Of a stretch of 64,000 bases of DNA, positions 44,844 to 49,928 are shown piece by piece. Source of the DNA: Streptomyces sp. NBC_01351 (lineage in GTDB: Bacteria; Actinomycetota; Actinomycetes; Streptomycetales; Streptomycetaceae). The translations under genes were made by a program, and so were the position numbers. The notes beneath the pieces were generated by a model. The model had not been told where the DNA came from. It saw only the letters and a program-made list of their open reading frames with translations, and searched no databases. Location: positions 6,577,501 to 6,641,500 of the forward strand of contig NZ_CP108356.1 of NCBI RefSeq assembly GCF_036237315.1. Reading direction: 5' to 3'. Position 1 is the first letter of the stretch. Every line of letters starts with the position of its first letter.

Positions 44844-44871
44844 GGAATCCTATGGTTGACAGTAGGATTCC
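44844..44871. promoter_or_regulatory. operator/promoter dyad of hmgA
   Basis: GGAATCCTA at 44844-44852 and TAGGATTCC at 44863-44871 form a perfect 9-bp dyad with a 10-bp spacer, 23 bp before the hmgA start. On the hmgA strand the proximal arm contains TAGGAT, a plausible -10. The co-transcribed GntR protein is one candidate binder. Confidence 0.65.
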
Positions 44872-45003
44872 GCGGCCCGCGCGTCAACGGTGGACGGAAG
44901 CGGATCGGCTCCGCGCGGGACGCCGAGCGGCTCCGCATGGACGTTGATCGGATTCGTGCGGAGGGGGATCCCAAAAGATGAACAATGCTCTACTCTCACG
45001 CGC

Positions 45004-47142
45004 ATGTCGTGGACCCGCAGGTTTCCTGCCGTGCCGGCGGCGTTCCTCGCCGCCCTCCTCGCTCTCCTGTCCCTCCTCGTCGCCGCGCCCCCCGCGAGCG
45101 CGCACGAGGAGCGCCCCGTCACCTTCCCCGACGGCACCGGATCCGTCCCCGAATACCGCAAGGCGGAGCCGGACCTGGTGGTCTGCAAGACGGACCGGCC
45201 CGACTTCGAACGCCGGATATCCGGCTTCCCGCAGGAGCTCAAGGACCGCAACCTCGCCCTGTTCGAGCAGTGCGGGAAGAGCGGCTACCGCCACCTCCAG
45301 CAGGCCGTCGACGCCGTCGACCGGCCCGGGATGAACATCGCGATCCTCCCCGGCCTGTACGAGGAGGAGCCCTCGCTCGGCACCCCGACGGGGGAGTGCG
45401 CCTCGCTCAAGGCTCCGAACTCCTCGCTCGGCTACCAGATCCTCAGCTACGAGCAGCAGGTGGCCTGCCGCCACAACCAGAACCTCGTCGCCATCCTCGG
45501 CAAGACGAACCTGCAGATCGAGGGCACCGGCGCCTCCCGCATGGACGTCGTCATCGACGCCAAGTACCAGAAGCTCAACGGCATCCGCGCCGACAAGTCC
45601 AACGGCGTCTACTTCCGGAACTTCACCGCCCAGCGCACCACCTTCAACTCGCTGTACGTGCTCGCGGCCGACGGCTTCGTCATCGACGACGTGCTCACCC
45701 GCTGGAACGACGAGTACGGCTTCCTGACCTTCGCCAGCGACCACGGGCTCTACAAGAACTGCGAGTCGTACGGGAACGGCGACTCCGGCATCTACCCCGG
45801 CAGCGCCTCCAACATCAACGACGGACGCGGCTACGACGTCCCCCGCTACTCCATCGAGATCACCGGCTGCCGCAGCCACCACAACATGGTCGGCTACTCG
45901 GGCACCGCGGGCGACTCCGTGTGGGTGCACGACAACGAGTTCGACCAGAACATGGGCGGCGCCTCCATGGACAGCGCCTTCCCCGGCCACCCCGGACTCC
46001 CGCAGAACCACGCCAAGTTCGAGCGGAACCTGATCCACGACAACAACCAGGACTACTACGGGTACGTGGCCGACGGCACCTGCGCCAAGCCGCCCATCGA
46101 GCGCGGCTACGAGCGGGGCGTGGTCTGCCCGCAGATCTCCATGCCCCCGGGCACCGGCATCATCACCGCCGGCGGCAACTGGAACCTCTACGAGAACAAC
46201 TGGGTGTACGGGCATCAGCGCGCCGGCTTCTTCCTCAGCGCCGTCCCCGCCTTCATCCGCGGCGAGGAGGCGTGGTCCAAGCAGACGGACACCTCCCACC
46301 ACAACCGGTACGCCGCGAACGTCATGGGCAAGGACAAGTCCGGCGCCGCCCGCCCCAACGGCATGGACGTGTGGTGGGACGGCCAGGGCCGCGGCAACTG
46401 CTGGCAGGACGGCCCCGACGGCTCCACCCCGGGCACGGTCCCGCAGTGCGGCGCAGCGCGCGGCGAGGTCTCGGGGGCCTCGGCCCGCCTCGTCGGCGAA
46501 CCGGTCAAGCTGGTCCAGCTCCTCGTCTGCGCCGACTACAGCGTCCAGGCCCGCAAACTCCCGGCCGGCTGCGACTGGTACGGCGCACGCGGCCTGGAGC
46601 GGGTCGAGACCCAGCTCGCGCTGGCCGTGGCGGCGGTCCTCCTCCTGGTCGGCGGGGTCCTGTGGTGGCGCCGCCTGCGCACCTCCCGCCTCGGCACGGT
46701 GGCCTCCCTCCTCGGCCTGGCGGGCCTGGCCCTGGACGTGGCCGGCTCCACCATGTCCCTCACCGCGACCTTCGTCCCCGCGCTGGCCCTCCTCCTGCTC
46801 GGCCTGTGGTGGACGGGAGCGGGCCTCGCCCTGCGCCCCACCCGCCCCTGGCTGGCCCGCCTGACCCTGCTGCTGGCCGGACTGACCCTGCTGGACGCCT
46901 TCGACAAGGCGGTCCTGATGATCCCCTGGACCCCCCTGAGCCCCGCCTGGCTAAGGGCCCTGGTGGCCGTGGTCTGGGTCCTGTGGGCGGTCGTCGCCTC
47001 GGCCCGCCCCGGCAACCCGGCCCGCCCCTCCGGCCCCGGCGGCGACCCGGCCGGAGACCGCACCCCCGTCCCGGCGGGCCCCTCCCCGTCCCTGCGCGCG
47101 ACAGCCCCCGAACCCCCGTCCACCCCGGAGGCCACCGCATGA
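45004..47142 (+). CDS. secreted/membrane right-handed beta-helix protein (NosD-like)
   Basis: 712 residues from ATG 45004. A signal peptide ends near ASA (residue 34). Residues about 60-530 are a right-handed parallel beta-helix of short N/D/G-rich turns (NGVYFRNFTAQRTTFNSLYV, DHGLYKNCESYGNGDSG, ERNLIHDNNQDYYGYV). The C-terminus has five hydrophobic helices (about residues 540-670) and a Pro-rich tail. NosD-type beta-helix proteins work in periplasmic copper handling, and a cupredoxin lipoprotein follows in the same operon. The combination of beta-helix and a five-helix anchor is unusual. Confidence 0.85.
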   Translation: MSWTRRFPAVPAAFLAALLALLSLLVAAPPASAHEERPVTFPDGTGSVPEYRKAEPDLVVCKTDRPDFERRISGFPQELKDRNLALFEQCGKSGYRHLQQAVDAVDRPGMNIAILPGLYEEEPSLGTPTGECASLKAPNSSLGYQILSYEQQVACRHNQNLVAILGKTNLQIEGTGASRMDVVIDAKYQKLNGIRADKSNGVYFRNFTAQRTTFNSLYVLAADGFVIDDVLTRWNDEYGFLTFASDHGLYKNCESYGNGDSGIYPGSASNINDGRGYDVPRYSIEITGCRSHHNMVGYSGTAGDSVWVHDNEFDQNMGGASMDSAFPGHPGLPQNHAKFERNLIHDNNQDYYGYVADGTCAKPPIERGYERGVVCPQISMPPGTGIITAGGNWNLYENNWVYGHQRAGFFLSAVPAFIRGEEAWSKQTDTSHHNRYAANVMGKDKSGAARPNGMDVWWDGQGRGNCWQDGPDGSTPGTVPQCGAARGEVSGASARLVGEPVKLVQLLVCADYSVQARKLPAGCDWYGARGLERVETQLALAVAAVLLLVGGVLWWRRLRTSRLGTVASLLGLAGLALDVAGSTMSLTATFVPALALLLLGLWWTGAGLALRPTRPWLARLTLLLAGLTLLDAFDKAVLMIPWTPLSPAWLRALVAVVWVLWAVVASARPGNPARPSGPGGDPAGDRTPVPAGPSPSLRATAPEPPSTPEATA

Positions 47143-47372
47143 GCACCCACCCCACCGGGTCGGCACCCGCCCGGCCCCACACCGCCGAACCGACCGGGAG
47201 CCCCCACCCGGCAGCCCCGGCCAGGCCCGCCCCGGCGGCCTCCGCCGCCCGTCGTCCCACCCGTCGCCCCGCCCGGGCGCGGGGCGGGGCCCGCCCGGGG
47301 CCCCGGCACCACCGGCACCAGCGGCTCGACCGGCATCGCCCGGCCGGCCGCACCGGGGGAGGGACGCGGTGA
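47139..47372 (+). CDS. 77-residue Pro/Ala/Arg/His-rich protein
   Basis: ATG 47139 overlaps the previous stop (ATGA), and its own stop overlaps the cupredoxin start (GTGA). Third codon positions are almost all G or C. The peptide is disordered, with Pro/Ala runs and a basic His-rich end (GPRHHRHQRLDRHRPAG). The tight coupling on both sides argues that it is translated. It may be a metal-binding tail or only a coupling element. Confidence 0.5.
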   Translation: MSTHPTGSAPARPHTAEPTGSPHPAAPARPAPAASAARRPTRRPARARGGARPGPRHHRHQRLDRHRPAGRTGGGTR

Positions 47373-48271
47373 GTGACGACCCTTCCGTCGAGCGCATCCG
47401 GTGCGACGTCTGCGCGGCCCCGCCCCGGATACCGCGCGGGCGCGGCCGGACCGCCCGGACCGCGGCCCTGCTCGCCCTCGTCCTGATCCTGGCAGGCGGC
47501 GCGGTGACGGGCTGCGGCGGGCGGGCCACCACCCACCACAAGCCCGGCACCACCCACGAGCAGGCCTCCGGCAACGTGGGCACCCTGCTCACCACCGAAG
47601 ACGGCGCGGGCCACCGCCTCCGAGAGGTCCCGGCCGAGGGCGCGCCGGAGGTCCAGCTCGCCGCCCGTCCGGACTCCGAGGACGGCTGGAACCTCCAACT
47701 GACGGTGAAGAACTACCGCTTCACCCCCGACAGCACCGGCGGAGCGGCCCTGCCGGGCGCTGGCCACGCGCACCTGGAGCTCGACGGACGCAAACTCGCC
47801 CGGCTGTACGGCCCCTGGTTCCACCTGCCCGCCGCGCAGGTCCCCGAGGGCGCGCACACCCTGACCGTCCGCCTCTACGCGGACGACCACACCGCCTGGG
47901 CGGTCTCCGGCAAGCCGGTCGAGGGCACGCTCCAGCTCACCGCCGCCGCCCCGGGCGGGACCGGCGGCCACGGCCACACCCCACCGCCGTCCCCGGCGAC
48001 GCCGGAGGCCGACCGCACGGTCAGCGTCACCGTCCGGGACGGCAAGGTCAGCCCCGCCCCCGCCCGCACCGAGCTGCGGCGCGGCGAGCGGGTCACCCTG
48101 CGCGTCACGAGCGACCGCGCGGACACCCTGCACGTCCACGGCTACGACAAGGAACTCACCCTGCCCGCAGGCCAGGAGGCCACCCTGACCCTGACGGTCG
48201 ACCGTACGGGCCTCTTCGAGGTCGAGACCCACGAGTCCGGCCTCGTCCTGACCCAACTCCTCGTCCGATGA
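47369..48271 (+). CDS. cupredoxin-domain lipoprotein
   Basis: 300 residues from GTG 47369. After a basic start with a CDVCAAP pair comes a membrane helix ending in GGAVTGCGG, a likely lipobox (Cys about residue 49). A middle domain (about residues 85-195) has GHAHLELDGRKLARLYGPWFHLP. A His-containing linker leads to a C-terminal cupredoxin fold (RVTLRVTSDRADTLHVHGYDKELTLPAG and a closing FEVETHESG). HVHGYD and THESG are the usual copper-contacting segments of such domains. It is probably an extracytoplasmic copper-binding lipoprotein. Confidence 0.85.
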   Translation: MSDDPSVERIRCDVCAAPPRIPRGRGRTARTAALLALVLILAGGAVTGCGGRATTHHKPGTTHEQASGNVGTLLTTEDGAGHRLREVPAEGAPEVQLAARPDSEDGWNLQLTVKNYRFTPDSTGGAALPGAGHAHLELDGRKLARLYGPWFHLPAAQVPEGAHTLTVRLYADDHTAWAVSGKPVEGTLQLTAAAPGGTGGHGHTPPPSPATPEADRTVSVTVRDGKVSPAPARTELRRGERVTLRVTSDRADTLHVHGYDKELTLPAGQEATLTLTVDRTGLFEVETHESGLVLTQLLVR

Positions 48272-48570
48272 CCCGCCCACAGCCGCATCCACCGCACCGG
48301 CCCACGCACTCACCGCACCGGCACCCGCGCCAACACGGGCGCCCGCGCCCGCGCCGACACCCACACCCGGGTCCGCGCCTGCACCCGCACCCGCGCCGAC
48401 ACCCACACGTGTTGCCGCACCCGCACCCGCACCCGCACCCGCACCCGCACCCGCACCCGCACCCGCACCCGCGGTCCGTCGCCGCGGTCCGGCTCCCCGG
48501 ACTCGGGCCCGAGTCCGGGAAGTCAGGCCGAGCCTGCGGCGGGACGCCGACCCCGGCCGGCCGGTGGTGA
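48268..48570 (+). CDS. 100-residue His-Pro repeat protein
   Basis: ATG 48268 overlaps the cupredoxin stop, and TGA 48568-48570 overlaps the next start. The peptide has 21 His, including nine consecutive Pro-His pairs from a CCGCAC hexamer array at 48415-48468, flanked by further HPHP and RRHPH segments. Of the three frames here, this one has the highest G/C at third positions, supporting translation. A His-Pro ladder can chelate Cu, Ni or Zn, in keeping with the neighbouring cupredoxin. No signal peptide is visible. The alternative is that the following membrane protein is extended by an (AP)n leader in its own frame, but no start codon supports that. Confidence 0.5.
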   Translation: MTRPQPHPPHRPTHSPHRHPRQHGRPRPRRHPHPGPRLHPHPRRHPHVLPHPHPHPHPHPHPHPHPHPRSVAAVRLPGLGPESGKSGRACGGTPTPAGRW

Positions 48571-49928
48571 GCCCCGTCGGGCCGGGGCCCGCCCCGGGCG
48601 CGGGCGTTGGCGGCGCCGGCCAGGACGTGGTCCTCCACCCGACCGATCCGCTCACCGCGCTCGCGCACGGGATCGGCTCCCAGCACGACCTGCCGATCTC
48701 TCCCTTCTACGCATTCGCGGGCGCCTTCGCCGCGCTCTTCGTCTCCTTCCTCGCACTCGGCCTGCTCTGGTCGACCTCCCGCTTCCGTGGAGACCGCTCG
48801 GGGCTCGCCCTCCCCGCCGCCCTCCAGCGGGCGGTCGACGCACCGGCCACCCGTACCGCCCTGCGCGCACTCGGCCTCGCCGCCGCACTCGCCGTCCTGC
48901 TCCACCTCCTTCTCGGCCCCGACGACCCCGAGCGCAACCCCGCTCCCGGCGCCGTCTACGTACTCCTCTGGGTCGGACTCGTCCCCGCCTCCCTCCTCCT
49001 CGGGCCCGTCTGGCGCCCCCTCAACCCGCTCCGCACCCTGCACCGCCTGCTCTCCCGGGCCCTGCCCCGCCGCACCCCCGGCCGCCCCCTCCCCGCCCGG
49101 CTGGGCCAATGGCCGGCCGCCGCCGGGCTGTTCGCCTTCACCTGGCTCGAACTCGTCGCTCCCGATCCCGCATCCACCACCACCCTCCTGATCGCCCTCA
49201 CCCTGTACGCCACCGCCCAGCTGCTGCTCGCCGCCCGCTTCGGCGAGCGCTGGTTCGACGACGGAGACGCCTTCGAGGCGTACTCCGCCCTCCTTGCCCG
49301 ACTCTCCCCCCTCGGCCGCCGCAATGACGGCCGCCTCGTCCTCCGCAACCCATTCCACGGACTCGACGCGACACCCGAGCGGCCCGGACTCGTCGCCACC
49401 GTCTGCGTCCTCCTCGGCTCCACCGCCTACGACGGCTTCTCCGACAACCCCTCGTGGATCGACACCCTGCAGACCTCCCCCCTCGGCCGCACCCCCACAG
49501 CCACCCTCGGACTACTCGCTTCCATTGCCCTCGTCGCCACCCTGTACTGCCTGTGCGCGGCGGCCACCCGTCTCGTCAGCGGCCCGCACCCCGGCCCGCT
49601 GACCGCCTTCGCGCACTCACTCGTGCCGATCGCGCTCGGCTATCTCATCGCCCACTACTTCTCCCTCCTGGTAGTCGAAGGACCACGCACGGTAAGCATG
49701 ACACTGGGCACTGACAACGCCCCCGAACCCTTGCCGCCACTGGGTCCCGGCGGTCTCGCCGCCCTCCAGGTCATCGCCGTCGTCACCGGCCACGTGCTCG
49801 GAGTCGTCGCGGCCCACGACCGCTCCGTACGGCTCTTCCCGCCCGCGAAGGCGGTGGCCGGACAACTCCCGCTGCTCGCGCTGATGATCACGTACACCAT
49901 CGGAGGGCTGAGCCTCCTGCTGAACTAG
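48564..49928 (+). CDS. polytopic membrane protein of the cupredoxin operon
   Basis: 454 residues from GTG 48564 (GTG 48567 gives a GTGA overlap). About ten transmembrane helices span from residue 45 to the end, with a His-containing first loop (VVLHPTDPLTALAHGIGSQHD) and a second His cluster near the last helices (YLIAHYFSLLV, VAAHDRSVRL). No known transporter family is recognised; the topology is that of a permease or electron-transfer membrane protein. As the last gene of the operon with beta-helix and cupredoxin proteins, it is a candidate metal transporter. Confidence 0.75.
   Translation: MVSPVGPGPAPGAGVGGAGQDVVLHPTDPLTALAHGIGSQHDLPISPFYAFAGAFAALFVSFLALGLLWSTSRFRGDRSGLALPAALQRAVDAPATRTALRALGLAAALAVLLHLLLGPDDPERNPAPGAVYVLLWVGLVPASLLLGPVWRPLNPLRTLHRLLSRALPRRTPGRPLPARLGQWPAAAGLFAFTWLELVAPDPASTTTLLIALTLYATAQLLLAARFGERWFDDGDAFEAYSALLARLSPLGRRNDGRLVLRNPFHGLDATPERPGLVATVCVLLGSTAYDGFSDNPSWIDTLQTSPLGRTPTATLGLLASIALVATLYCLCAAATRLVSGPHPGPLTAFAHSLVPIALGYLIAHYFSLLVVEGPRTVSMTLGTDNAPEPLPPLGPGGLAALQVIAVVTGHVLGVVAAHDRSVRLFPPAKAVAGQLPLLALMITYTIGGLSLLLN

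Follow-up and report, generated by a model that had tools for sequence, protein, structure and literature searches.

A candidate envelope copper module of Streptomyces whose three conserved genes may be coupled through relay open reading frames

We analysed a 64,000-nt window of the genome of Streptomyces sp. NBC_01351 (NZ_CP108356.1, forward-strand positions 6,577,501 to 6,641,500), which contains a run of five overlapping open reading frames (ORFs), here g1 to g5. We lean towards the reading that g1, g3 and g5 encode a three-protein envelope copper module, that g2 and g4 are relay ORFs standing between them, and that the whole series is coupled by termination-reinitiation. The features concerned are as follows, in window coordinates.

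44963..45003, + strand: conserved block directly 5' of g1, from the alignment of 74 distinct upstream regions
45004..47142, + strand: g1, 712 aa; predicted exported right-handed beta-helix with hydrophobic C-terminal segments (membrane helices); His34 follows an A-x-A site
47139..47372, + strand: g2, putative 77-codon relay ORF at the g1-g3 junction; no conserved protein
47369..48271, + strand: g3, 300 aa; predicted lipoprotein with lipobox Cys49, an N-domain and a C-terminal cupredoxin-fold domain
48002..48268, + strand: predicted cupredoxin-fold domain of g3, residues 212-300; HVH at 48131-48139
48268..48570, + strand: g4, putative 100-codon relay ORF at the g3-g5 junction; no conserved protein
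48415..48468, + strand: nine CCGCAC hexamers within g4, encoding nine Pro-His pairs
48567..49928, + strand: g5, predicted polytopic membrane protein with no Pfam entry; conserved H34, E195, H363, H409, H417 and M440

The five ORFs and four overlaps described in an earlier sequence-only reading were confirmed at these coordinates. The overlaps are all 4 nt long and read ATGA at 47139, GTGA at 47369, ATGA at 48268 and GTGA at 48567. The g5 product has 453 aa from the GTG at 48567, or 454 aa if the GTG at 48564 is used. The run of nine Pro-His pairs in g4 was also as described, the nine hexamers being perfect repeats.

Linkage was computed by tblastn (E 1e-3) in 26 regions around g5 homologues, some of them cut by contig ends and one (L061) holding a second, 48%-identical g5 copy. 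Matches to g5 were found in 26, to g3 in 24 and to g1 in 22. The usual order was a divergent homogentisate dioxygenase gene (20/26), g1, g3, g5, a TetR gene (25/26), a molybdopterin oxidoreductase gene (18/26) and a CitMHS-type transporter gene. In a wider set of 107 loci, g1, g3 and g5 stood close together and in that order in 80, while several others are cut by contig ends. This linkage exceeds chance. The sequence-only reading had named a lack of conserved linkage across Streptomyces as a result that would speak against it, and the three genes proved to be linked there.

The genes are also inherited together. Of 121 sampled genomes of the genus, 26 carry g5, and all 26 carry g1. Long g1 matches (>960 bits, residues 1-532) occurred in 27 genomes, the same 26 plus G050, an assembly 82% complete in ~1,770 contigs; this count leaves out six genomes whose g1 matches were weak (best E 7e-9 to 7e-4). 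In one genome (G012; L041, L257), g1 and g3 lie ~0.9 Mb from g5 on the opposite strand, so that the break falls at the g3/g5 junction. That junction is rich in repeats, and similar repeats are scattered in the window's genome. Outside Streptomyces, a g3-like cupredoxin gene lay directly upstream of g5 in 51 of 69 loci; of the others, a contig end truncates one and 17 do not satisfy the rule, L196 being excluded solely by the way in which distance was measured. In the lineage of the window, the g1 product would serve as a surface beta-helix partner. As judged from these alignments and predictions, g1, g3 and g5 are a conserved three-gene envelope module.

The sequence-only reading had called g3 a cupredoxin lipoprotein, and structure prediction bore out the cupredoxin. 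The predicted C-terminal domain has a clear cupredoxin fold, although the Cupredoxin_1 model (PF13473) scored 25.9 bits, slightly below its cut-off of 27. Its fold neighbours were the CuA domain of cytochrome oxidase subunit II, nitrosocyanin and NirK cupredoxin domains (PDB 6ptt, 1iby, 2dv6). The first conserved His of the g3 domain aligns with a His of the CuA stretch 'gfHvEGTN', but the g3 domain differs from these relatives in lacking the Cys pair and the Met, in keeping HxH...ExExH instead of type-1 ligands, and in having g5 as its partner. A binuclear CuA centre requires two Cys ligands; a CuA profile match was obtained (E 9.9e-5), yet the domain has no conserved Cys. With a domain-only profile, two designed Ig proteins scored higher, without any stretch passing alone. 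The g3 product would be a lipid-anchored protein that probably binds copper through its HxH...ExExH residues.

The two domains of g3 also have separate histories. Sequence resembling g3 occurred in 67 of the 121 genus genomes, namely the 26 with g5 and 41 g5-less genomes whose best matches stop by residue 262, and which appear to carry essentially the N-domain. Nine of these N-domain loci were examined; all were flanked by the dioxygenase (9/9) and TetR (9/9) genes, with the oxidoreductase in eight and the transporter in seven. Some of the g3-like stretches end early, and the ORFs that could be resolved (L251, L255) encode predicted lipoproteins of 193 or 187 aa. Such solo lipoproteins between dioxygenase and TetR genes point to a modular joining, in which the g3 of the window is, by its predicted architecture, an N-domain lipoprotein joined to a cupredoxin domain that is a separate protein in other actinobacteria. 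Solo N-domain proteins in alphaproteobacteria (L266 4794-5270, L265 5857-6270, L264 5779-6303) adjoin genes for a YHYH protein, a vanadium haloperoxidase or a DUF1636 protein, so the N-domain occurs beyond the g5 setting too. No copper theme was seen around the N-domain proteins of Roseibium, Phaeobacter and Loktanella.

For g5, the AF2 model was confident (pLDDT 87.5) and had roughly ten membrane-length helices, in line with the ten-helix protein claimed before; a fold search of the model against solved (PDB) structures gave no relative. Invariant or nearly invariant residues include an AHG in the N-terminal region, E195, H363, H409, H417 and M440, and A-x-A precedes the HG in at least 8 of 38 relatives. 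Relatives of g5 were found in 77 of 396 phylum-wide genomes and in 56 plasmid records, which include haloarchaea and alpha- and betaproteobacteria. CopC and CopD are a copper uptake pair, and there is an analogy in that g3 and g5 set an exported cupredoxin-like protein next to a polytopic membrane protein. However, CopD (PF05425) was not among the families matched by any of the 38 aligned g5 members at E 1, and no Pfam family was matched by more than one of them (best E 0.007). The name fenitrothion hydrolase has been used for similar membrane proteins; a literature search on it returned nothing. As a membrane partner of g3, g5 would probably move copper across the membrane, or hand it over within it, through its conserved His, Met and Glu residues.

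Three further observations concern g5 loci. A membrane protein of ~610 aa with no Pfam match is encoded near g5 in 14 of the 69 non-Streptomyces loci (L190, L191, L194-L198, L200-L205, L182), mostly two genes upstream and in loci of one family. Genome G004 (L035/L061), the source of the second, 48%-identical copy, has no g1 or g3 match beside that copy. At L060 (6366-6818), the g5 frame matches g5 at residues 28-136 only, and next to this frame, or inside it, is a stretch resembling residues 149-215 of homogentisate dioxygenase, which may reflect a rearrangement.

The description of g1 as a NosD-like beta-helix held in its second half. The sole Pfam match of g1 at E up to 1 was the beta-helix family PF13229 (38.1 bits, cut-off 25.9), and no NosD model was matched. 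Like the NosD of nos operons, g1 is a predicted exported beta-helix in a suspected copper setting; it differs in matching PF13229 and no NosD model (E up to 1; nosZ was not searched for). Residues H34-E35-E36 are kept at a level of at least 98% in 80 sequences (near-duplicates included), immediately past an A-x-A site, and H247, H292, H293, H309, H329, H336 and H432 are as conserved. Because the A-x-A site directly precedes the conserved H34, mature g1 would start with this His. An N-terminal His is a feature of histidine-brace copper proteins.

Copper appears to be the likeliest metal of the module, because of the neighbours of g5 in other organisms and because of one domain fusion. In two mycobacteria, M. 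chubuense NBB4 and M. dioxanotrophicus, the g5 gene lies within a hydrocarbon monooxygenase (CuMMO) cluster, and in Rhodococcus WAY2 it lies ~8 kb from one. Other copies lie near CopC, and CPC-type heavy-metal ATPases were found near g5 in four of the six haloarchaea viewed. A SCO1, P-type ATPase, CopC or AMO gene was present in 14 of the 69 non-Streptomyces g5 loci, compared with 0 of 20 hand-picked control regions, in a comparison that is post hoc since the queries were drawn from the g5 loci themselves, with two of the ATPases lacking CPC. The strongest copper link is in Sulfitobacter, where the gene divergent from g5 fuses a PCu(A)C chaperone domain (PF04314; 36.5 bits, cut-off 29.4) to the g3 N-domain (34% over 119 residues, E 6e-15; hhalign probability 97.8). 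The N-domain lies within ~1 kb of g5 in all four Sulfitobacter g5 records, which are close relatives, one of the proteins being annotated merely as hypothetical. The g3 of the window is itself without a PCu(A)C domain.

Several results weigh against copper. The SCO1, P-type ATPase, CopC and AMO queries matched in 0 of 66 Streptomyces loci, and 15 query proteins from the relatives' neighbourhoods (these four and others; NosZ was not a query) gave no match in the window. Some g5 relatives sit in other settings. A copper monooxygenase was rejected as the general client of g5, since AMO (PF02461) occurs in 3 of the 396 phylum genomes whereas g5 occurs in 77, and in the only genome with both (G147) the two lie on separate contigs. 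The type-1 (blue) copper ligand set is absent from the g3 domain, in which no Cys or Met is conserved across 40 sequences, and one Nocardioides cupredoxin is without the HxH. Missing copper ligands had been named in advance as an objection; the objection stands for the type-1 set and falls for the alternative His/Glu set, which is kept. A module serving another metal (iron, zinc or cobalt), or none, is a possible though unlikely alternative. In its favour, genes annotated 'iron transporter' adjoin g5 in haloarchaea, two of the ATPases are without the CPC motif, CbtA is encoded near two mycobacterial g5 copies, and some proteobacterial copies lie in catabolic settings; the PCu(A)C fusion, the copper monooxygenase clusters and the CopC and SCO1 neighbours speak against it. 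Of the proposed copper capture, buffering and transport at the surface, what survives is an envelope module with copper as the likeliest metal, on circumstantial evidence from relatives; the buffering by two His-rich peptides does not. As a widespread membrane family without a Pfam entry, paired with a Cys-less cupredoxin and linked to CuMMO and PCu(A)C, g5 is a well-defined candidate for the role of copper transporter or metallation partner.

As proteins, g2 and g4 are unconserved. Neither gave a tblastn match in any of the 26 regions, where the relatives have other sequence or nothing at the same place. In most relatives, g1/g3 and g3/g5 meet at a direct NTGA (4-nt) overlap or an in-frame join, and the others hold unrelated ORFs. 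Short NTGA overlaps between consecutive genes are the structural hallmark of a termination-reinitiation coupled operon, and g1 to g5 have them at all four junctions. According to published measurements in E. coli and H. volcanii, reinitiation has almost disappeared once the gap is ~20 nt long, and subunits of complexes are enriched in short overlaps (PMC10666635). A ribosome reaching g5 by reinitiation would therefore have to traverse g4. The core genes in most relatives resemble the coupled pairs of PMC10666635 in being joined by 4-nt NTGA overlaps, but differ in that inserts here are bridged by unconserved relay ORFs. Neither this operon nor relay ORFs were found described in a literature search (open-access only).

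The geometry of the junctions was computed in 99 distinct loci: with a start codon on the stop of the upstream gene as the reference, each junction was classed by the frame in which the downstream gene lies. Among 83 g3/g5 junctions with a start on the g3 stop, 56 read straight into g5, 25 were in the relay-capable frame, where an ORF can end on g5's own NTGA, and two were in the third frame (L055, with a 2-codon ORF and then a start one nucleotide on, and L111). The same three classes held 64, 8 and 0 g1/g3 junctions, one of the 64 (L117) stopping before the g3 match begins. A start codon on the g3 stop is missing from eight more g3/g5 junctions (4, 1 and 3 by frame), and the one g1/g3 junction without a start on the g1 stop reads straight in. 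In total, 31 ORFs of 4-268 codons, the two of the window included, overlap both neighbours by exactly 4 nt, of which 23 lie at g3/g5 and 8 at g1/g3; exceptions to this exactness are L038 (7-nt overlap), L055, L102, L111 and L117. The peptides are mostly unrelated and of low complexity, such as PHPH (window), PAPASAPAP (L059), DPFPD (L042) and TLTLTP (L038). On our reading, this frame pattern would be what selection for continued coupling predicts.

It is doubtful, though worth weighing, that g2 and g4 are instead untranslated repeat expansions, with g5 starting alone and the frame pattern arising from 3n units and shared ancestry. The core of g4 is indeed a hexamer repeat, repeat units of 3n bases hold the frame without selection, and relays within one clade are not independent. 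Among relayed starts, 9 of 23 for g5 and all 8 for g3 have Shine-Dalgarno-like matches of 4 or more, and three loci (L102, L111, L117) break the relay rule. These points count against coupling through relays. On the other side, the 3n units account for part of the length variation but not for the frame switches. A quick tree built from 83 g5 proteins requires at least 10 switches between the two main, workable junction states (six of them forced by well-supported branches), against two occurrences of the third state. Relays arise separately at both junctions, and also in Kribbella and Nonomuraea. The Shine-Dalgarno-like match was found at 5 of 56 direct g5 starts, below the 20% seen at random window positions, and at 0 of 23 relay starts on the g3 stop; in the window, g2 and g3 have one and neither g4 nor g5 does.

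Coupling through relays would work as follows. We infer that g1, g3 and g5 are translated one after another, with termination and reinitiation at each 4-nt overlap. In the clade of the window, the junctions would have gained inserts, the one at g3/g5 being here a His-Pro hexamer repeat. These inserts would last chiefly where their frame either runs into the following gene as a fusion or gives a relay ORF whose end coincides with the following start, which would let ribosomes continue from each gene to its neighbour. Both g2 and g4 would be relays of this kind, with an incidental amino-acid content. We find it evenly balanced whether a broader principle holds, namely that content-free relay ORFs arise and are kept because selection favours an uninterrupted flow of ribosomes between partner genes, that relays are a birthplace of orphan small operon 'genes', and that 31 of them form a natural series in this operon, whose copper module would be undescribed and would include a new membrane family. 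If it does, then once an insert has split a coupled pair, the lineages to last are the ones in which it is read as a fusion or as an exactly ending ORF. The junctions offer a natural test case for translational coupling, in which a given gene pair is joined by direct overlaps, in-frame joins or relays of 4-268 codons in different loci, and they suggest an origin for some lineage-specific small genes in operons.

The initial proposal, that g2 and g4 encode true metal-buffering peptides rich in His, is very improbable. The composition is suggestive (21 His in the 100 residues of g4, with its nine Pro-His pairs; 7 His, 16 Arg and 14 Pro in the 77-mer of g2), and both frames are open and overlap their neighbours, but no homologue exists across the 26 regions, and relays elsewhere are Pro/Ala/Ser-, Thr- or Gly/Pro/Arg-rich without His runs. 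Nor is the g4 frame favoured by a codon model trained on seven in-frame window genes, scoring -3.88 per codon against -3.63 for g3's frame across the same stretch; the g2 frame is barely favoured, by ~0.15 over other frames, while g1 (3' end), g3 and g5 lead the nearest rival frame, on the opposite strand, by 0.3-0.4 and the other plus-strand frames by 0.8-1.0. Equally improbable is that the module serves the neighbouring molybdopterin oxidoreductase as an accessory: TetR follows g5 in 25 of the 26 regions and the oxidoreductase is present in 18, but the oxidoreductase occupies the same site without g1 and g5 in eight of nine g5-less loci, and the plasmid g5 copies viewed have other neighbours.

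Upstream of the operon, the block of ~40 nt directly before g1 is conserved in the 74 distinct regions aligned, which reach Nonomuraea. A regulon sharing the block was considered and dropped, since it is present in a single copy in the genome (up to 3 mismatches). The hexamer TACTCT ends ~7 nt before the g1 ATG, a proximity that suggests a leaderless transcript, and the block is possibly a leaderless promoter. Farther upstream, between the homogentisate dioxygenase gene and g1, lies an inverted repeat, GGAATCCTA...TAGGATTCC (window 44844-44871), which may be an operator of the dioxygenase gene.

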